Positions 6,635 through 54,424 of a stretch of 54,628 bases of DNA are shown here, one piece after another. The DNA comes from Elusimicrobiota bacterium (GTDB taxonomy: Bacteria > Elusimicrobiota > Elusimicrobia > 2-02-FULL-39-32). The stretch is from positions 1 to 54,628 of the forward strand of contig JAKFYJ010000038.1 in the NCBI GenBank assembly GCA_021730935.1, read 5' to 3'. A model generated the notes under the pieces. That model made no database searches. It had not been told where the DNA came from and saw only the letters and a list, made by a program, of their open reading frames with translations. The position numbers were made by a program, and so were the translations under genes. Numbering within the stretch: the first letter of the stretch is position 1; each line of letters starts with the position of its first letter.

Positions 6635-7768
6635 GTGACGGAGAGGGAAGAGCTTCAGCGCGAATATCTTGAGGGGGTCCGGGCGAGGGTTCGCACTCTG
6701 GAGTCTTTGAAAAAAGACATCGCCTCAAAGTTTCCGGAAGCGTTTGAAGAGGTTCGGCGGATCAGCCACAAGATCTCCGGGTCCGCCGGCGTCTTTGGAT
6801 TCCCGGAACTCTCCTCCCTGGCCGGCGCCGTGGAAAAATCTTCCGACGAAGAATTGCCGGGAAAACTGGAACAGATGTTGAAATCCCTCAAGGCCGCGAG
6901 CGAAGCTCCCGCAGTCCAATCCAGTCCCGAGCGCGACATGCTGAAAGCGAAGTTCGACGCCTTTCTTCTGACGGCGCTCCAGGCGGGGAAACCTTTTTCC
7001 GTGTGTTTCGTCCGTTATGAAATCCTGAGTCCGTCAATGAGCACCCAGGAGAATCTCGACGGCCTCGCGAATTATTTCAGGGAAGCTCTCCCGGCATTCC
7101 TGACCAAGAGCGATGTTGTCGGCCGTCTGGACGCGTCAAGTTTTCTGGCCCTCCTTCCTTATGCAGATCTGGCGCGGGCCGGAACCTTGATCGACAAACT
7201 GATCGACGATGTGATGAAAACCAGATTCGAGTCCGCAGGCGGGGCGTTTTTGGAAGTGAAGATTTCAGCGGGGCTCTGCGAAGTGAAAAAAGACATGACT
7301 TTTTCCCAGGCCATTGACCAGTCCTTTTCTCAGTCGGAACGCGCCGCCCGGTTGGGGGGCAACTGCGTGATGGGCTCTCACATTGCGGAAGGGTCTCAAA
7401 AATCCGTCAACATCCTCGTGGCCGACGACGATGAGATGATCACCTCTTTCGTTCAGCGCAGGCTGGACCAGCGCAAATATAAAATACTTACGGCCCCCGG
7501 AGGCGTCCAGGCCATGGACATCGCCAGCCGCGAGGAGATCGGCCTTTTTGTCCTCGACATCCAGATGCCCGGCATGAACGGTCTGGAAATCCTGGAGCGG
7601 ATACGCAAAATGCCCAAACATGCCAAGACGCCCGTTTTGATGCTCACCGCCCTCGGAAATGAAACAGACATTGAGCGCGCGTTTGCGGCCGGCGCCAACG
7701 ATTATCTCGTGAAACCCTTTTCTCCCGTCGAACTCCAGGCCAGGATCCGCCGTCTCATCGGCTCATGA
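6635..7768 (+). CDS. Hpt-degenerate GGDEF-receiver fusion protein
   Basis: The 377-residue product starts at GTG 6635. Residues about 1-88 form an Hpt helical bundle with His45 in SHKISGSAGVFGF. Residues about 105-248 have the fold pattern of a GGDEF domain, but the signature is replaced by RLDASSF (164-170), so cyclase activity is unlikely. Residues about 257-375 are a receiver with DDDE, phospho-Asp308 (FVLDIQMPGMNG) and VKPF. The combination makes it a phosphotransfer hub that can take phosphate on His45 and hold it on its own receiver. The degenerate GGDEF may bind GTP or a partner. It lies in the overlapping signalling operon and overlaps the HEAT protein gene by 4 bp. Confidence 0.85.
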   Translation: MTEREELQREYLEGVRARVRTLESLKKDIASKFPEAFEEVRRISHKISGSAGVFGFPELSSLAGAVEKSSDEELPGKLEQMLKSLKAASEAPAVQSSPERDMLKAKFDAFLLTALQAGKPFSVCFVRYEILSPSMSTQENLDGLANYFREALPAFLTKSDVVGRLDASSFLALLPYADLARAGTLIDKLIDDVMKTRFESAGGAFLEVKISAGLCEVKKDMTFSQAIDQSFSQSERAARLGGNCVMGSHIAEGSQKSVNILVADDDEMITSFVQRRLDQRKYKILTAPGGVQAMDIASREEIGLFVLDIQMPGMNGLEILERIRKMPKHAKTPVLMLTALGNETDIERAFAAGANDYLVKPFSPVELQARIRRLIGS

Positions 7769-13895: not shown

Positions 13896-14848
13896 AAAAT
13901 TCGCCGACCGTTTTGATTGTGGATGACGAGCAGGAAATCTGCAGCGTCATTCAGCGATATCTGACCCGCCAGGGATATCAGCCGATTTTGGCCAACACCG
14001 GGGTGGAAGCCCTCGGCAAAGCCAAGGTCCAGAAACCTGATGTGATCCTGCTCGACATCAACATGCCTGAGATGGACGGCTTGTCCGTCTGCAGGAAGCT
14101 TCGGGAAGATCCCGTCACTCGCCTGACCCCGGTCCTCATGCTCACTTCGCGCGCCTCTGTCGCGGACCGCATCAACGGCTTGAATCAGGGCGCGGACGAT
14201 TATCTGCCCAAACCCTTTGAACTTGCGGAGCTGAACGCCCGCATCGACGTGCTCCTTCGCAGGAGCGAGCGCATGGTGTCCGTCAATCCATTGACTCATT
14301 TGCCCGGGAACCCCAGCATCGACGAAGAAATCGCCCTCCGGATCAAGTCCGGCAGGAAGTTTTCTGTGGCGTATCTGGATGTCGACAACTTCAAGCCGTA
14401 TAACGACATCTATGGGTTTCATCAGGGAGACCTCCTCATCGTCTGGCTGGCCAAGATGATTCAGGAACAAATTTATAAGATGCCGGGAGGGTTTGCGGAA
14501 AATTCTTATTTTCTTGGGCATGTCGGCGGAGACGATTTCATCGTGGTGGGGGACCTTGAACCGATGGCGGACCTCGCTCAGAGGATTGCGGACGATTTCG
14601 ACGGCAACCGGGGGCTCTGGTACAACTGGTGGCACGCGCACAAAGGATATGTCGTGACGAAAGACCGGATGGACCGAGAAAATAAATTTCCTCTCATGAC
14701 AGTGTCCGTCGCCGTCTGCACCAACGAACAGCGTTCCATTTCCCACATCGGCGAAGTTTCACAAATTCTTTCGGAGCTCAAAAAGTTTGCGAAGTCCCGA
14801 AACGATAAATCAAAAAGTGTCGTTATGTTTGATCGGAGGAAAGGATAA
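13892..14848 (+). CDS. Receiver-GGDEF diguanylate cyclase (PleD/WspR-type)
   Basis: The 318-residue product has a receiver (about 5-122) with DDE, phospho-Asp55 in VILLDINMPEMDG and PKPF. A GGDEF domain (about 132-315) follows with DVDNFKPYND and GGDDF at 212-216, an accepted active variant. No RxxD inhibitory site precedes GGDDF, so product feedback is not expected. It should make c-di-GMP from two GTP when phosphorylated. As the last gene of the operon that includes the polysaccharide synthase and a CsgG lipoprotein, it is the natural output of the phosphorelay. Shine-Dalgarno AAAGGAG lies just upstream, within the preceding gene. Confidence 0.9.
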   Translation: MKNSPTVLIVDDEQEICSVIQRYLTRQGYQPILANTGVEALGKAKVQKPDVILLDINMPEMDGLSVCRKLREDPVTRLTPVLMLTSRASVADRINGLNQGADDYLPKPFELAELNARIDVLLRRSERMVSVNPLTHLPGNPSIDEEIALRIKSGRKFSVAYLDVDNFKPYNDIYGFHQGDLLIVWLAKMIQEQIYKMPGGFAENSYFLGHVGGDDFIVVGDLEPMADLAQRIADDFDGNRGLWYNWWHAHKGYVVTKDRMDRENKFPLMTVSVAVCTNEQRSISHIGEVSQILSELKKFAKSRNDKSKSVVMFDRRKG

Positions 14849-44237: not shown

Positions 44238-44930
44238 ATGATCATCAGGATTCCCAAAGGTCTGTTCAAGGGCATGAAGATGAAAGTTCAGGAAAAGGGC
44301 GTTCAGCCGCCCCCATCGAACCCGGCCTCTCCTTCCAAATCCCCGTCTCCAGAACCCGTAAATTTAGACAAAGAACTCGCTAAAAAACCCAGTCCCGCTT
44401 TGATCAGCTCGCTGGACGATCCCGACCCCTTCGTCCGTTCCGTCTCGTCGGAAGTCCTGGGCCGCATGAAGGACAAAGACGCGGTCAAACCCCTGATCCG
44501 CCTCCTCAAAGACTCTTCAAAATATGTCCGCGAAAAAGCGGCGATCGCGCTCGGATACATCGGCGAAAAAGCGGCGGTGCCGGCTTTGATTGAAGCGCTC
44601 AACGACGATGCGGAAGAAGTGCGCGTGACGGTTGCGGGAGTTCTGGGCCACTTGAAAGACCGAGAAGCGGTTCCGGCCCTGATTCATTCTCTTGGCGACA
44701 TGAGCGCTGTGGCCCGCATGAAGGCCGCGATTTCCCTTGGAGTCATCGGGGACGACGAAGCCGTTTCCGCTCTTTTTCAGGCCGCGAAAGATGAAAACGA
44801 AATGGTCCGGAAATATGCCTGCGAAGCGCTCGGCAACATTGGAAAACCCGCGGTTTCCGCCCTCCTCATGTGTTTGAAAGATGAAAAAATCCGCGCGCAC
44901 GCCGCCCAGGCGCTCGTTAAAATAAAATAA
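44238..44930 (+). CDS. HEAT-repeat (PBS-lyase-type) protein
   Basis: The 230-residue product has a basic N-terminus and a Pro/Ser-rich linker (about 20-45). About five HEAT repeats follow, for example DPDPFVRSVSSEVLGRMKD, SSKYVREKAAIALGYIGE, DAEEVRVTVAGVLGHLKD and ENEMVRKYACEALGNIG. There is no signal peptide or membrane segment. It is a generic interaction scaffold; the partner is not evident. It is the last gene before the long regulatory region. Confidence 0.88.
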   Translation: MIIRIPKGLFKGMKMKVQEKGVQPPPSNPASPSKSPSPEPVNLDKELAKKPSPALISSLDDPDPFVRSVSSEVLGRMKDKDAVKPLIRLLKDSSKYVREKAAIALGYIGEKAAVPALIEALNDDAEEVRVTVAGVLGHLKDREAVPALIHSLGDMSAVARMKAAISLGVIGDDEAVSALFQAAKDENEMVRKYACEALGNIGKPAVSALLMCLKDEKIRAHAAQALVKIK

Positions 44931-44964
44931 TCCGGAGCTCAAATTCCTCGACGGTGAATCGGGG

Positions 44965-44980
44965 TGTGACAAAAGTCACA
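44965..44980 (+). promoter_or_regulatory. CRP-like palindrome 1
   Basis: TGTGACAAAAGTCACA is a 16-bp inverted repeat fitting TGTGA-N6-TCACA. It is centred about 76 bp before the predicted transcription start. Confidence 0.7.
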
Positions 44981-44986
44981 TGCCTC

Positions 44987-45002
44987 TGTGACAAAAATCA
45001 CA
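44987..45002 (+). promoter_or_regulatory. CRP-like palindrome 2
   Basis: TGTGACAAAAATCACA also fits TGTGA-N6-TCACA. Its start is 22 bp after that of site 1 (two helical turns), centred about 54 bp before the predicted start. Confidence 0.7.
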
Positions 45003-45013
45003 TCAAAAATCCC

Positions 45014-45042
45014 TTGACAGATTTTTCAATCCCTGTTATATC
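45014..45042 (+). promoter_or_regulatory. Promoter of the giant secreted protein gene
   Basis: TTGACA (45014-45019), 17 bp, TATATC (45037-45042) with an extended TG. The string CCTGTTATATCCAT is shared with the promoter at 4244-4272. The predicted start is about 45049, giving a 259-nt leader. Confidence 0.7.
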
Positions 45043-45048
45043 CATAAC

Positions 45049-45307
45049 GCTGAAAATAAGTTTTGATCTTTTTATCGCTCAACAACTCGAAAAGGCAACT
45101 CTCTTTTTAATAAGAAGAGAGGCGCAAAGTCACAAAACACTGGCCTGAGCATCGGCCGATGTTGGTTGGACTACCGAAAGTTCTTGAGGATCATCAGGAC
45201 AGTTTATTTCATCGGGGGATGATGCGACTCTGACGATGATCTGGAACGGAAGGTGGGCTATGCCAACATTTATCAAACGAATGTTGGTTTTTTTATTTTA
45301 AGGAGAG
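45049..45307 (+). promoter_or_regulatory. Structured leader RNA with terminator/antiterminator switch (candidate riboswitch)
   Basis: The stretch has no ORF but dense complementarity. Hairpin 1 is CTCTCTT (45099-45105) with AAGAGAG (45115-45121), followed by GCGCAAAGTCAC. Hairpin 2 is AGCATC (45148-45153) with GATGTT (45158-45163). A long irregular stem stacks CTACC/GGTGG, GTTC/GAAC and GATCATC/GATGATC (45171-45256) with a CATC/GATG tip. The terminator 5' arm CCAACAT (45263-45269) can pair either with ATGTTGG at 45281-45287 or with the identical ATGTTGG at 45159-45165, the latter inside hairpin 2. This is the layout of transcription-attenuating riboswitches. GGCAA, GCGCAAAG and GGCCT recall c-di-GMP-I (GEMM) RNAs, but the closing helix does not fit, so the class is left open. 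Confidence 0.65.
45263..45294 (+). terminator. Intrinsic terminator just before the giant gene
   Basis: CCAACATT (45263-45270) pairs perfectly with AATGTTGG (45280-45287) around a 9-nt loop, followed by seven T. It ends 13 nt before the ATG, so it must be conditionally bypassed. Confidence 0.85.
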
Positions 45308-48300
45308 ATGATTAACAAACGGACTTCCTATATAAGCAGGTTGATCCCCTCGGATATGCGTCAGAATCCAAGGGGATTGCTCTTGTCTTTGGGGTTTTTT
45401 ATGGCAGCTCTCGTTTGTCCGGCAAAATCGCTTGCTGTCTCTCCCAACGACAACATTGCCTTCGCCACGAACCTGACCGTTAATTTCTCGACGATCTCCG
45501 GTGTTTATGCCTCTTCGTTCTCCGCCGTCACCACGGGGGACTCCACCGAAAACGGCGAACAGGGCGGTTGCACCACGGTTTCCCGAAGCGTGTGGTATAA
45601 GTTTATATCGACCGCGGCCTATACTCTGAATGCTGAAACGGTGGGTTCAAATTATGATACCGTTCTTTCGGTCTGGAAAGGAACCGATGCGGTGGTTTCC
45701 ATCGGCGGACTTTTGGCGACGCCTTTGGCATGCGATGATGATGGAGGAGGAAATGTCACATCGAAAGTCAGCAATGTCTCCTTGATAAAAGGCGTCACAT
45801 ATTTCTTCCAGGTTTCCGGGTTTGGCTCTGCAAGTTCGGGCGGTTCCCTCGTGTTCAGCTCAACTCTGACCCCTGTCCTTCAGGACCTGACCGTTCCGAC
45901 GGTTAAAATCCAACAGCCGGCAGAGGGAACCTATCCGGTTTATACCAGCATCTATAACATTTCAGGGACAGCTCAGGATCAGGGCGGGCTGACTCAAGTC
46001 AACATCATCCTGAGCACGGGAGGCATCAGCGCAGGCGGCTCCATGTGGAACGGCGCAAGCTGGATCCCCGCATGCACGAGCAGCTGCACGCTTTCTGCGT
46101 CGCTTTATAACGGGATAAATTCGACCAGCACGGTGTGGAGTTATTATCTGCCGCTGTTGCTGGATGGGATGAGTTATTTCATTCAGGCCCAGGGGGTCGA
46201 CGCGTCCGGCAATCTCTCTGCATTCACCGCGTCGATCAGTTCCTTCACCTATTCATCGCCTGTGACCGCGAACGACAACATGTCCTCGGCAAAAGTCATT
46301 TTCTCTTCGAACCCGCTTCCTTACGTCGACGTGACCACCAACACCATTGCAACGAATTTAATTCAGAAAAGTCCAGGCTGTGAAGGCGGCTCCGGCTCCA
46401 GAGACATCTGGTATCAATATCTTTCAACCTCCACGGACGGAATGACCGTGAGCTCGGTCGGAAACGGGTTCAACACAATCTTGGCCGTTTGGAAGAGCAC
46501 GGGAGGAGTCCTTCCGATTCCCGGAAATTCGGCCACGGAGATCGGCTGTGACAGGCCTTATTCTCCCAATGCTTCCGTTTCGTTCCAATTGGCGTATGGC
46601 GGGACCTATTATTTTCAGGCGATGTCGGAAAACGGGAATGGCGGGGCGATTCAGCTGACTTTGCAAAGAGCTGGGGGCGGCGACGTGACCGCGCCTGCGG
46701 CCGTGACAGATTTGGCGGCCAGTCCGGATTATGTTGCCGGCGGGGCTCAGCTGAGGTGGCGCGCTCCAGGAGATGATGGTTACACGGGGCTGGCTCAAAA
46801 TTATGAGATCAGATATTCAACCATCGCGCCCATATCCTCGACGGTGTTTGGAACCTTCAACAATTTCAGCTCAGCCACTCTCGTTTCCAACCGGACTCCC
46901 ACGGTTGCAGGGACGCAGGAAACGGCTTATTTTTACGGTCTGCCGCAGAAGACCACCATCTGGTTTTCCCTCCTGACGAACGACGACGCTTTCAACTTCA
47001 GCTCTCTCTCGAACGGCGCGACCGTGTTTGTCCCCGGAACCATTCCGATTTACACTTCCACCAGCCCCGGAGTCGCGGTTTCGGTCAGCACAGTTCCATA
47101 TTCAGACGAGACCAACACGGCATCCTCCGCTGGTGTCCTCGACAAAACGCCCACATGCGGAACCTCCAAGATCTCCGGAAGCGACAGGGATATGTGGTAT
47201 GTCTTTCATGCCCTGGACAACCGCCGCATGACGGTGAACACTTTCAATTCCGCTGTTGACACGGTCCTTCAGGTTTGGGCCGGAAGCGACACAGCCGTGT
47301 TTCAGCATGTCGCCTGCAGTGATGATGAACCGGGATTTGGGCTTCAGTCAAAAGTCTCCTTCAACATGATCCCGGGAACAACCTATTTCATTGATCCCAT
47401 CGGTATGGGTGGCGGCGGTGATGTGGTCCGCCTTCAGTTTGATGAAGCGGACAGCATTGCTCCGGGACAGCTCACCACCCTCTCGGCTTCCCCCGGCGTT
47501 TCTCTCGGAGAAGTGGATCTTTCCTGGACAGAGCCTGCGGACAATGCCTATAACGCTTCGAGCGGCAAGGTCCTTCGTTATCAGATCCGCTATTCGTCTT
47601 CCGGATCCATCAACGGGTCCAACTGGACAGCGTCTTATACCTCCACGGGCGCGGTCCGCGACATTGAAATCGCCCCGATCACTCAGTTCCCTCCGACCCC
47701 TGTTTCTGCCGGATCTCTCATGACCTATACCATCCGCAACCTGAACCAGGGAACGACCTATTGGTTTTCCGTGCGAAGCGTCGACGGGTCTGGGAACATT
47801 TCCAACGCGTCCAACAGTCCGTTCGCAAGGGCCAAGGCCCCGGTCCCTCTGCCGGGAGACGGGCAGGGCACAATTCAGATCCGCGATGTGAGTGACACCT
47901 CCGTTTTAACCCAGGTTCCGGCCAGTTCTCAGACCACGCTTAATTTGCGCTATACCGTGGGAGTTTCATCGTTGTCCGCGGGCGGGCGCATCTCCATTAA
48001 GTTCCCGGACTATTGGTCCCTCCCCTGTCCCGGATGCGGTTCCGGAATTGCCGGGCTGATCACCCTCAGCACGATCACTTCGTCCGTTCCGCTGAGCAAA
48101 TTGTCGGTGAGTTATGATCTTAACGACAACACTGCCCGCACGATCATCATCAAGAGTTCCAACACAAGACTGAATCAGGGCGACATCATTAATATCCAGT
48201 ATTCCAACGCGTTCACTCAGCCCAGCCGTCAAACCGGCGTTCAGTTCCTGACACAGGTCAAGGGTTCAGAAAATGGAGCTTTCCTGAATATTCCTGTCCA

Positions 48301-51300
48301 GCCGAGCATCAATGTCGTCGGGGGAAGTCCGGTGAGAGTGAGTTTCATGGACTCAAATTACATCACTCTCGGCTCCAATCAAAATTCTCCGCAACTCCTG
48401 GTTGAGCCTCAGGACGTGAACTGGGTTGGAACGACCGCCGACCGCACTCTGAATATGCGGGTTTTCACATTGCGGAGGGACACGCTCACCTATACCTATC
48501 ATTACGACAACAATGCCCAACTTTCCAAAAACAATTTCACGACCTTTTTGGCTTCCGCCACGATTTCAACCGCGGCTTTCCAGGGAGCCGGATATTATTA
48601 TTCCCTCTCTTCCGGTGTCGGCATGGCGACCTATTATCAATTCTCCATCCCGCAGGGCGAAAGCGTTCAGCCGATTTATTATCGCACCTCGACTCTGGGA
48701 GAAACTCTGCTCTGGGTTGAATATAACAACGATTTCAATTTCGGACCCTCGACCCAGTCATTTTCCAGAAACTTCACGATCCGTCCCAACGCCATCGGGT
48801 TCAGCGGCCTGACGGCTTTGCCCGCGGTTGTCTCGCCGGACAATGACGGCGCGAACGATTTCGCTTCCATTGATTTCAATCCGTCAGATTCGGACATGCA
48901 GTGGAGGGTGAGGATTGGAACGGACCCCGTGCTTTCAAATCTTTCTTCGTTGGCGAGGCTCAACATCGGCGGGGGGGCCGCGTCAGGCGCTCCAGGGGCG
49001 GCCGCCGCAGCGGTTTCCGCATCCACCATCAGCGTTTTCCTGGACTGGTCTGGTTATGGAAGACCTCAGGGCATCACTTGGTACGGCCAGGACTTCTCCG
49101 GGAAAACTCTTCCCAGCGGAACGTATATCGTCCGCCTGGAAGACACGGCAGGCACCGTGATTTCAACAACGACATTGACACTGAGCTCGTCGTTCCTGGA
49201 CATTTATGTGGACCGGAGCGGGCCCGTGAGCGGGGCGGATGTGTTCATCAACGGCCAGAGCGGCAATGGGTATGTCTCCCGTTTCGCCAAGACAGGCTCC
49301 GACGGAAAAATACGCGTTTGGGGGCTCAAGAGCGGCTCTGCCTATAACATCAACGCCAATTATTATGACCTCTCGACCGGCAAGAGCCTTTTCGGAAACT
49401 TGTCAAACCAATCCGCGCCCAGCGTGAACACCAGTTCCATCACTTTTGTCGAGCCCGCGATCCTCCGGTTCCACGCGAGCATTCCCTTGGGGTCTGAAAC
49501 CTCATATGACCAATGGGGTTCCATCAACATGATGGAGCTTGCCAGCGGTTTCTTTGTGACCAACGGGTCCATCCGCATCCCCAACAACAGCCTGGAATCC
49601 GACAGCGGCTGGATTTACGGCGGGTTCCCGAGTTCCTGGACCACCCTGAACGTGACGGCTTCAGGCGGAGGAAGTTCTTATAAAATCCGCCTGGACATGT
49701 TTGGATACACCCCGGTGGACATCACGACCACGGTCGTCGGCGGGACTCAGCACGAGTTCAACATATCCCTGATCAAAAAACCCAGGATTTACGGCATGGT
49801 GGTTTTGCCTTCCACGAGCACGCTTGCCTCTCAGGGAACCTGGGTTTCAGTTGAAGGGAGAAAATCCAGCCAAAATTATCCGACGACCTGGGGCGGAGTG
49901 TGGTTCCCGAGCGCTTCGGGAGGACTCACTCCAAAATCCACGGGATATTTCAGCCTGGACGTTGATACGGGAACGACCTATATCCTCAAGGCCCGAGGAC
50001 AGGGCATCGGGTCCGTTCAAACTCAAGTTGCCGTTGCAACCACCGATATCGGTTCCATCCAGGTGGACAACTCGGGGACCGTGGAAGGCGGATATTCTGT
50101 TGCGAACGGAATCACTCTCGCTTTCAGCACGACGGTGAGCCAGGGAATCGCAGGAGCCATCACCGTGGAAGGCAACAGCACGAACCTGAACAATCCTTTC
50201 ACCCTTTATGTCAACGCGTTCAGCCCCACGAATTATTCCTATGCCAACACGCAGGTGAGCATCACGCCCAGCGCTTCTTCCGCCACCGCGAGCTATCAGA
50301 TGCAGGGGCTCGAAGACGGTCTATATCAAATCTATACCTATCTCGACGGATATGAAATTTTCCCTCAGGGGCCGAAAACGGTCAATGTGGTGAACGGGCG
50401 CGGGGACCTCAGTTTCACGCTCAAGAAATTTTCCGGCGTCGCCATCGTGCGGTTCACAACGAGCGCCGCGGGCGGATATAACGACGTGTCGCTTCGGGTT
50501 GACGGAAACGGCATCAGTTTTTCAACCGGGGACATTCAGCGTCCGCCCTCTCAGGCACAATTCCGCCAGTTCGCGACCACCGGGGAAATCGTTCTTTCAA
50601 ATCTGGGCACTGGATTTTATGACTTCACCTCCTCGTTCAAAGGCCGTTATCTGACGAAGAAAGCCAACATCCTCAACGGACAGACCGCGGTCATTGACCT
50701 TGATTTCAGCGGCAATGTTTATACCGTCACGGGCACGGCGAAAGTTCAAGCTTTCACTTATGGAGTCACTTCCTCTTTCCCTTCAGGCATCCGCATCAAC
50801 ACCATCAGCGACCTCGTGGACCGCAGCAAAGTCGGACTGGACACGGTTTATGTCGGCACCGGAAACACCCAGGTGCCCATCGCGCGAATTGAGGCCTATC
50901 CCCGAACTTCCTCCAATTTCGGTTCCGGAATATCAAACCTCGTGAGCGTCAACAACGCGGCCAATGTCGGAACGGCCGGCGGGTTTGCAGGAACTCAATT
51001 CAACACCGGTCAAGTCCGGTTTGGGACCATCGATTCTTCCGGCAACTGGCGCATTGACAACCTGTTCCCGGGAGTCTATATCCTCCGCCACCCTCTGAAT
51101 CTGGATCCCAGCGCGACCTATTATACGTCCACCGTCGGGGGCAGTTTTGAAACGAACACGGCGGATGTGGGGAACGAACAGAAAGTCATTTCAATCTCCA
51201 CCGCCGGATTGATCTCCGTCATTGAACCTCTCAACGGCAACCTCGAATTCACTTATCAGGCCGGGGCGCAACTGAGCGGCCAGATTCTTCTGCCCGCGAG

Positions 51301-54300
51301 CAACCCGTCCGACACGCGCTTCATGACGCTGGTGGTCCTCAACAGCCGCAAGGAAATTGTGAGCTGGCAATCGATTTATTTGAACGGAGCGTCAGCCAAT
51401 TATAGCGTGACAAACCTCGGCGACGGGGATTACACCGTGATCCTGAACGACGAGAGGAAAGGAAACGAGACGAATCCCGACAATTATGTTTTCGCCGCGG
51501 GCAACACCAGCAATTACGAAAAATATGTCGCAAAGCCGCTCAACATCTCCATCCGCGGATCCAACCTCTCGGGGCAGAACATCCAGCTTTACCGCGCAGG
51601 ATTTGCGGAGGGCAAACTGGCCATCGTCCGCATTTCCAGCACGGGCGTGAAAACCACGGAGCTGATCACCTCCAACAACGCGAACCTTCTTCCAAGCAGT
51701 TTCAGGGTCTATGCCTATCACGACACCATCGACAAGTCGAACATCAGCGCGGACAGCAACGGCTCAGGTTTCGTCAGCATCGACAGCGCGAAAGGGACCT
51801 TCAGGATTTCAAAGCTGTTCCCGGACACGGAGTTCAGGATCTTGGCCGGACCTTCGGGGAGCTCTTTCGGCTCCGCCGATGTGCTGGGACAAGGAAAGCT
51901 CAATGTCGTCCCTGTGGAAAAAACGGGGTATACCGTCGGAGCGGGCCAAATTCTGGATGTCGGGACCCTGGAAATGCCCATGGGGCTCACCATCTCAGGT
52001 CAAGTCCAGGGGCCGGACCAGTCAGGTTCCACCGTCCCTGTCGCCAATGTGCGCGTGAGCGTGAGAGCTTCTGGCGCCACCAACCACGAAGAGATTATTG
52101 CTTTCACCGATTCCCGCGGGAGCTATACCGTTTCGGGCCTCAATCCGGACCAGAGGTTTTATGATTTCATTTTCGCCAGCCGCAACGATCGTCAGGACAC
52201 CGACGTCAACTTCAGCGCCCTCATCAACATTTCCGGCTTTGCCGTCCAGAAAGATTATGCCCAGAAGACCAAGAAAAATGTGGATGTCCGCATTGCCACG
52301 CAGACGGTCAATGTCGTCCTGGAAAGAGGTTTGGGCGCGTTCACAGGACGGGTGACGACAGCGGACGGAGGACCCCTTAAAAACCCTGTCGGAGGAAACA
52401 GCGATATGGGGTATCCCGTGGCGACGATCATTATGAATAAGCTTGGGGACATTCCGACCAACAACCCCATCGGGGACATTGAAGTGAGGACAGATCTGCA
52501 GGGCAATTTCACCATTGATCGCCTCGCTCCCGGGACTTATGAACTATACGCCATGAGCCTTGGATACGCCGTCAAAAAAATGCTCATCCACCTGGCTTCG
52601 AGCGACACCGCAAAAGCGATCGGCGACGTTCAGCTTCAAAACGGACTTGAACTTTCCGGAGAAATCGTGAAGCCGGACGGGACGCACCCTCTGGCGGACC
52701 GCGAAGTGAGCATTTTGGCCGCGGCCAACTCGGATTTCTCGGAACTGACCATTGCCTCCCTCATCAGCAACCCCCAGACCGGAACCATCGACGGATATTC
52801 TCTGGCGGGTCTGAAAGCCGGCACGACCTATACCCTCATGATTTTTAACGAAAGCGGACAGCCCATCACGCCGCCGGAACGCTTGCCTTCCGGCAACAGC
52901 GGGATCAGGATCTCGACGACGACCAAAAACTTCAACCTCACCTTCGCCCAGTCCGCGCCGCAGGTCGTGATGAAAGGCAAAAAAACCGGCACAAAAATCG
53001 GCGGGATCGACCAGTACAAATTTGAATTCGTGAGCACTCACCCTCTCCGCAACAAAACGAACCGGGAGAAAGAAGACACCTATTGGCAGGACGTGGTTTC
53101 GATTTCAGCGGGAACGGGGGGGACCTCTGCAAATCTGAGCGCGGACCCCGCGGATGTCAACCCGATCAATCCTGAACGCAAAAAAGTGACGGTGCTTTAT
53201 GTTCCTCCGTCCGCGGCCACTTCCAAAGTTTCTCTGAGGTTCAATTCTCCGACGACCGAACTGATGCCGGGAACCACCACCAATTTCGTTATCGACAAGG
53301 TGTTTGATTATTATCTCGGGCTTTCGGGCCAGAAGCTGAGCAGCATCAATCTGATGAAAGGTGACAATGTTTCAATCGAAGGCGATGATACGGAGTTCTT
53401 GATTCCCGGAGGCGCGTTCAAAAAAGCTGACGGGACAGATCTGGATGTTTCGTCGTCCGTCAGCGTTGGGCTCCAGAAAGCGACGGATGTGAGCCAGGCC
53501 ACGGGAGCTGTGAACGCCGCTCCCGCTCTTGCGGCCGCCCAGCCTCTTGATGAGAGCATGCCGCCGATCCTGGCCAACGCCATGAAGTCGATGCGGGTCC
53601 TGAAATCGCTTGAAGTCGAAAAGACTTCCGTGAAAGGGGCTCCCGGAATTCTCGGCGCGGCCTCTGTCGCTTCCGATGTCGCGACGAACGTCCTGTCATC
53701 TTTCTATGATTTGTTCCTCCCCGCCGGAGTCCGCAGGACCTTGGCCAAGAACGCGACCGTCACTTTGTCCTATACTTCCGCTCCGGCCAACACCTCCGCC
53801 CTCAATGTCTATTTTTATAACGACACCAATTCTTCCATGTTCGCAACCGACGGAACCACCGTGGCTCCCGGGGCTTATGGCTTGGAATCAACGGGACGAA
53901 GCCTGAACACCTCCAACAACACCATTTCAGTCAGCGTGAACCACTTCACGGTCTATGTCGTCGTCAACAGCACTGAAAGCGTGCTGGGTTCCGCCAGTGT
54001 CCTCGGCTCTGTCACGAGCACGAACCTGACCCTGCCGACAACGGTGGACTATTCCGGAGGCGAGCTTGAAGTCTTCAACTTCCCCAATCCTTTCGACGCG
54101 ACGGCCCGGGGCTTCAATTTCACGGGCACAAAAACTTCCGGCCAGCAGACACTTCACGCCGACGGTTCGACTGCGATCCGTTATGCGTTGCCGTCCAATC
54201 TTGGGCCCAGCGATGTCCGCGCGACCTGCGAGATTTATGATGTGGCGGGCGACCTGGTCAAGCGATTGGATTTCGGGTATCAAACCACGGGCAAATATCA

Positions 54301-54424
54301 TTACGCTGATTGGGACGGCAAAAACGAAGACGGCGAGACGGTCGCCAGCGGCGTCTATATCGGCAGACTTTCAATTGAAGGGTCTTCACGGACCAAGACC
54401 TTCAAGATGGCGGTGATCAAATGA
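45308..54424 (+). CDS. Giant secreted multidomain protein with FlgD-type Ig-like C-terminus
   Basis: The 3038-residue product has a signal sequence (hydrophobic GLLLSLGFFMAALVC, about 24-38, ending AKSLA). Three PPC-like beta domains (about 46-190, 320-455, 600-715) share S-x-S/D-x-W-Y and D-T-V-L-x-V-W patterns. Fibronectin III-like domains occur at about 458-585 and 717-850. A stalk of many carboxypeptidase-regulatory/Cna-B-like beta units (about 1300-2530) follows, with turns such as SGQVQGPDQSGSTVPVANV. The end is an FlgD-type Ig domain (about 2917-3038, VFNFPNPFD ... IYDVAGDLVKRL ... WDGKNEDGETVASGVY), a tail seen on proteins exported with PorV-type partners. It is probably a surface adhesin or matrix protein. 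AGGAG lies only 2 nt before the ATG; Met17 (45356) is an alternative start. Confidence 0.85.
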   Translation: MINKRTSYISRLIPSDMRQNPRGLLLSLGFFMAALVCPAKSLAVSPNDNIAFATNLTVNFSTISGVYASSFSAVTTGDSTENGEQGGCTTVSRSVWYKFISTAAYTLNAETVGSNYDTVLSVWKGTDAVVSIGGLLATPLACDDDGGGNVTSKVSNVSLIKGVTYFFQVSGFGSASSGGSLVFSSTLTPVLQDLTVPTVKIQQPAEGTYPVYTSIYNISGTAQDQGGLTQVNIILSTGGISAGGSMWNGASWIPACTSSCTLSASLYNGINSTSTVWSYYLPLLLDGMSYFIQAQGVDASGNLSAFTASISSFTYSSPVTANDNMSSAKVIFSSNPLPYVDVTTNTIATNLIQKSPGCEGGSGSRDIWYQYLSTSTDGMTVSSVGNGFNTILAVWKSTGGVLPIPGNSATEIGCDRPYSPNASVSFQLAYGGTYYFQAMSENGNGGAIQLTLQRAGGGDVTAPAAVTDLAASPDYVAGGAQLRWRAPGDDGYTGLAQNYEIRYSTIAPISSTVFGTFNNFSSATLVSNRTPTVAGTQETAYFYGLPQKTTIWFSLLTNDDAFNFSSLSNGATVFVPGTIPIYTSTSPGVAVSVSTVPYSDETNTASSAGVLDKTPTCGTSKISGSDRDMWYVFHALDNRRMTVNTFNSAVDTVLQVWAGSDTAVFQHVACSDDEPGFGLQSKVSFNMIPGTTYFIDPIGMGGGGDVVRLQFDEADSIAPGQLTTLSASPGVSLGEVDLSWTEPADNAYNASSGKVLRYQIRYSSSGSINGSNWTASYTSTGAVRDIEIAPITQFPPTPVSAGSLMTYTIRNLNQGTTYWFSVRSVDGSGNISNASNSPFARAKAPVPLPGDGQGTIQIRDVSDTSVLTQVPASSQTTLNLRYTVGVSSLSAGGRISIKFPDYWSLPCPGCGSGIAGLITLSTITSSVPLSKLSVSYDLNDNTARTIIIKSSNTRLNQGDIINIQYSNAFTQPSRQTGVQFLTQVKGSENGAFLNIPVQPSINVVGGSPVRVSFMDSNYITLGSNQNSPQLLVEPQDVNWVGTTADRTLNMRVFTLRRDTLTYTYHYDNNAQLSKNNFTTFLASATISTAAFQGAGYYYSLSSGVGMATYYQFSIPQGESVQPIYYRTSTLGETLLWVEYNNDFNFGPSTQSFSRNFTIRPNAIGFSGLTALPAVVSPDNDGANDFASIDFNPSDSDMQWRVRIGTDPVLSNLSSLARLNIGGGAASGAPGAAAAAVSASTISVFLDWSGYGRPQGITWYGQDFSGKTLPSGTYIVRLEDTAGTVISTTTLTLSSSFLDIYVDRSGPVSGADVFINGQSGNGYVSRFAKTGSDGKIRVWGLKSGSAYNINANYYDLSTGKSLFGNLSNQSAPSVNTSSITFVEPAILRFHASIPLGSETSYDQWGSINMMELASGFFVTNGSIRIPNNSLESDSGWIYGGFPSSWTTLNVTASGGGSSYKIRLDMFGYTPVDITTTVVGGTQHEFNISLIKKPRIYGMVVLPSTSTLASQGTWVSVEGRKSSQNYPTTWGGVWFPSASGGLTPKSTGYFSLDVDTGTTYILKARGQGIGSVQTQVAVATTDIGSIQVDNSGTVEGGYSVANGITLAFSTTVSQGIAGAITVEGNSTNLNNPFTLYVNAFSPTNYSYANTQVSITPSASSATASYQMQGLEDGLYQIYTYLDGYEIFPQGPKTVNVVNGRGDLSFTLKKFSGVAIVRFTTSAAGGYNDVSLRVDGNGISFSTGDIQRPPSQAQFRQFATTGEIVLSNLGTGFYDFTSSFKGRYLTKKANILNGQTAVIDLDFSGNVYTVTGTAKVQAFTYGVTSSFPSGIRINTISDLVDRSKVGLDTVYVGTGNTQVPIARIEAYPRTSSNFGSGISNLVSVNNAANVGTAGGFAGTQFNTGQVRFGTIDSSGNWRIDNLFPGVYILRHPLNLDPSATYYTSTVGGSFETNTADVGNEQKVISISTAGLISVIEPLNGNLEFTYQAGAQLSGQILLPASNPSDTRFMTLVVLNSRKEIVSWQSIYLNGASANYSVTNLGDGDYTVILNDERKGNETNPDNYVFAAGNTSNYEKYVAKPLNISIRGSNLSGQNIQLYRAGFAEGKLAIVRISSTGVKTTELITSNNANLLPSSFRVYAYHDTIDKSNISADSNGSGFVSIDSAKGTFRISKLFPDTEFRILAGPSGSSFGSADVLGQGKLNVVPVEKTGYTVGAGQILDVGTLEMPMGLTISGQVQGPDQSGSTVPVANVRVSVRASGATNHEEIIAFTDSRGSYTVSGLNPDQRFYDFIFASRNDRQDTDVNFSALINISGFAVQKDYAQKTKKNVDVRIATQTVNVVLERGLGAFTGRVTTADGGPLKNPVGGNSDMGYPVATIIMNKLGDIPTNNPIGDIEVRTDLQGNFTIDRLAPGTYELYAMSLGYAVKKMLIHLASSDTAKAIGDVQLQNGLELSGEIVKPDGTHPLADREVSILAAANSDFSELTIASLISNPQTGTIDGYSLAGLKAGTTYTLMIFNESGQPITPPERLPSGNSGIRISTTTKNFNLTFAQSAPQVVMKGKKTGTKIGGIDQYKFEFVSTHPLRNKTNREKEDTYWQDVVSISAGTGGTSANLSADPADVNPINPERKKVTVLYVPPSAATSKVSLRFNSPTTELMPGTTTNFVIDKVFDYYLGLSGQKLSSINLMKGDNVSIEGDDTEFLIPGGAFKKADGTDLDVSSSVSVGLQKATDVSQATGAVNAAPALAAAQPLDESMPPILANAMKSMRVLKSLEVEKTSVKGAPGILGAASVASDVATNVLSSFYDLFLPAGVRRTLAKNATVTLSYTSAPANTSALNVYFYNDTNSSMFATDGTTVAPGAYGLESTGRSLNTSNNTISVSVNHFTVYVVVNSTESVLGSASVLGSVTSTNLTLPTTVDYSGGELEVFNFPNPFDATARGFNFTGTKTSGQQTLHADGSTAIRYALPSNLGPSDVRATCEIYDVAGDLVKRLDFGYQTTGKYHYADWDGKNEDGETVASGVYIGRLSIEGSSRTKTFKMAVIK

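Follow-up and report, generated by a model that had tools for sequence, protein, structure and literature searches.

The window analysed here, a stretch of 54,628 nucleotides, belongs to the genome of an Elusimicrobiota bacterium (2.7 Mb in 96 contigs, 95% complete) whose nearest named relatives, as judged by one neighbouring gene, are Elusimicrobia MAGs, several of them from groundwater. A structured leader precedes a 9-kb open reading frame that encodes a protein of 3038 amino acids with a signal-peptide-like N-terminus, fn3/Ig-like and carboxypeptidase-regulatory-like domains, and a C-terminal FlgD_ig domain (Pfam). The product is probably secreted, and it may act as an adhesin or as a scaffold for extracellular enzymes. 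Of note, the N-terminus of the giant protein is weakly similar to open frames of 15,000-17,600 amino acids in G047:C11, G022:C12, and G000:C1. The features of the locus are as follows.

44965-44980, forward strand: CRP-like palindrome TGTGACAAAAGTCACA (sequence)
about 44986-45001, forward strand: second, similar CRP-like site TGTGACAAAAATCACA (sequence)
45014..45043, forward strand: likely promoter, TTGACA at 45014-45019 and a TATATC-like -10 element (alignment with orthologous promoters)
45078..45188, forward strand: P1 closing helix (present in the minimum-energy folds of RNAs with 3' ends at 45195 and 45245)
45084..45178, forward strand: c-di-GMP-I (GEMM-I, RF01051) aptamer core (cmscan, covariation in 22 aptamers)
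45095-45125, forward strand: P2 (RF01051 model alignment)
45128-45172, forward strand: P3 (RF01051 model alignment)
45158..45166, forward strand: antiterminator 5' strand, which is part of the P3 3' strand, includes the equivalent of G83, and pairs with 45262-45270
about 45168..45260, forward strand: predicted long hairpin with imperfect pairing that separates the aptamer from the terminator and, when no ligand is bound, is predicted to run on into the antiterminator helix
45262..45294, forward strand: intrinsic terminator, stem 45262-45288 and U-tract 45288-45294 (terminator scan, fold)
45300..45305, forward strand: probable Shine-Dalgarno sequence AAGGAG, only 2 nt ahead of the ATG at 45308 (sequence)
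45308..54424, forward strand: regulated gene, encoding the 3038-aa protein (ORF list, Pfam, orthologues in G001, G005, G007, and G008)

A sensitive cmscan of positions 44800-45500 matched the RF01051 (c-di-GMP-I/GEMM-I) model at 45084-45178 with 45.1 bits (E 1.5e-7), about 10 bits above the curated cut-off of 35 bits. The alignment spans the full model (positions 1-87), all 22 consensus pairs are standard with no non-canonical one among them, and a repeat search of a second copy of the locus (L034) gave the same result. The likeness to c-di-GMP-I RNAs remarked on in the preliminary description was thus borne out by the Rfam model search, and the leader is a genuine, divergent member of this known class. 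Its announcement as a new riboswitch class does not hold, because a divergent member is missed by a fast scan or by eye: a fast Rfam scan covering the entire window at the gathering threshold returned no match, its filters having wrongly passed over the element, and a search of the organism's own genome with RF01051 likewise missed this copy.

The fold itself stands out from chance. For positions 45080-45180 the z-score was -3.6, with 0 of 200 dinucleotide shuffles folding as well, and for the whole leader it was -3.1 (1 of 200). P1 comprises 11 pairs in three segments that join 45078-45089 to 45175-45188, namely CUCAA/UUGAG (45078-45082 with 45184-45188), AAC/GUU (45084-45086 with 45180-45182), and UCG/CGA (45087-45089 with 45175-45177). 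By model alignment, the predicted ligand contacts are present as G45094 (G20), A45126 (A47), and C45174 (C92), as is the inter-helix pair C45123-G45165, equivalent to C44-G83. These equivalences presume a transfer of the Vc2 residue numbers, which the published numbering supports (PMC11218506, PMC4744006). All of these residues have been tied to contact with c-di-GMP (PMC11218506, PMC9049102, PMC4744006). The leader therefore shares with Vc2 of Vibrio cholerae, the reference for RF01051, the P1-P2-P3 arrangement, the pocket residues, and every consensus pair. It differs from Vc2 in a J1/2 that is one nucleotide shorter, a form also seen in other Elusimicrobiota members, and in its P2 and P3: P2 is a 10-bp stem rich in A and U, in particular U, without a GNRA tetraloop, and no canonical tetraloop receptor is recognisable in P3. 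By a simple motif test, the tetraloop is found in at least 79 of 102 members of the class. A GEMM-I subtype lacking the receptor has been described, and the tetraloop and its receptor are common in the family and not universal (PMC11218506). These departures explain why the fit to c-di-GMP-I had been called incomplete, although all consensus pairs form. Given the absence of the tetraloop and of a canonical receptor, the affinity for the ligand may be low.

The genome of the window's organism holds four further matches to RF01051, the leader scoring lowest of the five, and 34 of 60 relatives carry at least one match over the cut-off. The preliminary description had also called for a covariation check, and the aptamer helices came through it when aligned with other Elusimicrobiota members: in 22 aptamers including the leader, 93.9% of the cells were standard pairs, 12 of 17 pairs had changed on both sides (at most 7 in any slid register), and the covariation score reached 0.595 (at most 0.141 in slid registers). 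A riboswitch class unrelated to GEMM-I could draw only on the miss by the fast scan and on the non-canonical P2 loop; set against the full-length match with its intact pairs, the conserved pocket, and an aptamer that aligns and covaries within the class-wide set, it seems exceedingly improbable. GEMM-I riboswitches usually precede genes concerned with the environment, the membrane, and motility. The first downstream genes in the Elusimicrobiota class, which were picked automatically and may be wrong in places, are in line with this setting and include those for TPR, UPF0164, FecR, CsgG, FlgO, fn3, and FlgD_ig proteins. Tandem aptamers, with two matches a few hundred bases apart, occur at L023, L005, L194, and L197 (G031:C228, G039:C238, G010:C20, and G028:C65). 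Our literature search found no report of a c-di-GMP-I riboswitch in Elusimicrobiota.

Regarding the ligand, G20 (G45094) favours c-di-GMP over 3',3'-cGAMP, because a GEMM-I riboswitch with the G20A substitution binds cGAMP (PMC6274999). The A20 hallmark of GEMM-Ib, the cGAMP-sensing riboswitches of Geobacter that share the same fold, is present in 23 of 102 class members and absent from the leader, and cGAMP specificity of this copy was rejected on the basis of G20. Two other GEMM-I aptamers of the same genome do have A20 (CGACAATAGCACACCC), at G000:C1:61060-61138 on the reverse strand (L001) and at C1:6876-6953 on the forward strand (L002). As for the enzymes, the genome encodes several GGDEF domains with intact GG[DE]EF motifs. 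The diguanylate cyclase that had been noted in the window corresponds to a GGDEF domain at 14288-14551 (41.7 bits), but its motif is a degenerate GGDDF. No Hypr-type Ser/Thr was seen among the 12 GGDEF matches of the genome and no SMODS CD-NTase was found there, so that no known family of cGAMP synthases was detected.

These observations bear on the idea that the leader derives from a GEMM-I aptamer that now senses another cyclic dinucleotide such as 3',3'-cGAMP, or that it has lost binding and persists as a fixed attenuator. The missing tetraloop and receptor, the lowest score in the genome, and the A20-type aptamers beside it lend this idea some weight, as does the report that some class I riboswitches of C. 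difficile are non-functional (PMC6366702). G20 and the lack of detected cGAMP synthases argue against a different ligand, and pocket residues and pairs that are all intact would be unexpected in a decayed copy; we consider both variants unlikely.

The expression platform lies exactly where the preliminary description had placed it, according to the terminator scan, the fold, and the sequence. The terminator stem (45262/45263 to 45287/45288) has 10 bp including a closing G-U pair, with few G-C pairs (3 in the count of the terminator scan), and is followed by seven T (45288-45294). Its 5' arm, CCAACAT at 45263-45269, has two perfect ATGTTGG partners, one at 45281-45287 in the terminator and the other at 45159-45165 in the aptamer, and the antiterminator consists of 9 pairs, two of them G-U, between 45158-45166 and 45262-45270. 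Recurrence of this 7-mer was found in 0.05% of dinucleotide-shuffled aptamers and an equally strong duplex in 1.15%. Across 24 terminator-bearing Elusimicrobiota loci, the matching of terminator arm and aptamer strand was not above that of permuted sets (p 0.20-0.29). The pairs GUUGG/CCAAC and GUCGG/CCGAC recur at the same place across loci, and a sister locus of the same genome (C48) has GUCGG/CCGAC where the leader has GUUGG/CCAAC, which is suggestive only. A DNA search of the 60 relatives with the leader matched nothing except the leader itself, yielding neither a homologue of the 45168-45260 hairpin nor a donor.

We favour the reading that c-di-GMP switches off transcription through this leader, a class I (GEMM-I) riboswitch, and assign it a probability of about 0.8. 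The aptamer (45078-45188) would be transcribed and folded first. Binding of c-di-GMP would keep the P3 3' strand, along with its G45165 of the inter-helix pair, in the aptamer, which would leave the terminator 5' arm at 45262-45270 free and allow the terminator to halt transcription ahead of the gene. Without the ligand, 45158-45166 would leave P3 to pair with 45262-45270, and the antiterminator, which together with the 45168-45260 hairpin would make up a single long helix, would let RNA polymerase read into the 9-kb gene.

Staged folding of growing transcripts, with and without constraints, is consistent with this scheme. The aptamer is the minimum-energy fold of transcripts up to 45262. By equilibrium energies of the RNA alone, the antiterminator is then favoured, unless the aptamer is held in place, by 6.8 kcal/mol in the transcript to 45272 (ensemble -72.3 versus -65.5) and by 5.9 kcal/mol in that to 45279 (-73.4 versus -67.5), and at full length the aptamer with terminator (-76.3), the terminator (-77.8), and the antiterminator (-77.2) lie within 1.5 kcal/mol of one another on the same equilibrium scale. 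In this model, such near-equality would be what a choice set by the ligand needs.

The terminator uses no base of the aptamer, whereas the antiterminator takes the P3 strand with the G83 equivalent. Since aptamer and terminator do not overlap and the antiterminator requires an aptamer strand, only the OFF polarity fits, and a ligand that holds the aptamer would therefore favour termination. GEMM-I riboswitches include both ON and OFF types and use several mechanisms (PMC6366702, PMC11218506), which leaves some room for an ON switch or for a translational switch masking the AAGGAG at 45300-45305. An ON switch would have to contend with terminator arms outside the aptamer, which ligand binding leaves unbroken, and with a sole competitor of the terminator that itself uses an aptamer strand, while the Shine-Dalgarno sequence of a translational switch lies 3' of the U-tract, outside the competing helices; both are very unlikely. 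The OFF riboswitch proposed here resembles Cd1 of the flgB operon of C. difficile, where the terminator can likewise form alongside the bound aptamer, with an antiterminator as their competitor (PMC9262584). The two differ in organism and regulated gene, and in the long extra hairpin between aptamer and terminator of the leader. The earlier proposal that a riboswitch ahead of a 9-kb gene chooses between a terminator and an antiterminator that exclude each other is thus supported.

The upstream region offers a comparison with leaders that have no such element. The first 300 residues of the giant protein have an orthologue at 45% identity in G001, which belongs to the same genus, and further orthologues in G005, G007, and G008. 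In each of these genomes the orthologous gene is preceded by one or both of the CRP-like sites; a CRP-like site, TGTGACAAAARTCACA, and a TTGACA promoter recur in all four, with a short leader before the start codon. The promoter layout in G007, G008, and G005 matches that of the window, in which a strict consensus promoter scan reported no promoter. The match between G001 and the window, with 88% identity across 78 nt, extends to the -10 region; the 260-nt leader that follows is absent from G001, and an Rfam search of the four orthologous leaders gave no match and hence no riboswitch. Because the four orthologues share the promoter region without the riboswitch, the latter was probably gained in the lineage of the window, seemingly in one species only; repeated loss in other lineages is possible. 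An extended form of this scenario, in which a GEMM-I variant newly inserted into a CRP-type promoter leader in one species has shifted in affinity or ligand preference for want of the tetraloop-receptor clamp, strikes us as having a small chance of being right; if true, a recent gain of a riboswitch would have been caught against riboswitch-free orthologues.

Several observations concern the promoter region and its relatives. Elsewhere in the genome the first CRP-like site is matched exactly, as a palindrome, at a single position, an 18-mer of the CRP-like site also precedes an A20 GEMM-I riboswitch in L009 (1423-1440), and the genome encodes two Crp-type HTH proteins. In G007, the leader of the orthologue (L155, about 7120-7160) has a hairpin, AATCCGAAT...ATTCGGATT, with a T run a few bases on, possibly a separate attenuator; this hairpin is not kept in G008. 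A GEMM-I element ahead of a gene for a secreted protein that is also under CRP control is known from Vc1 (gbpA, V. cholerae) (PMC11218506). Vc1, however, is a positive regulator in which no terminator is apparent (PMC4744006), and the site upstream of the promoter described here is CRP-like by sequence only.

The riboswitch described here is ordinary in kind, with a probable OFF mechanism of the standard sort; it adds no new class, and its unusual points are minor. Its interest lies in the gene and the setting: in an Elusimicrobiota lineage of groundwater type, a very large secreted protein is probably under the control of c-di-GMP, and one promoter and gene, seen both in a form that carries the switch and in forms that lack it, provide a useful comparison for how riboswitches are gained.
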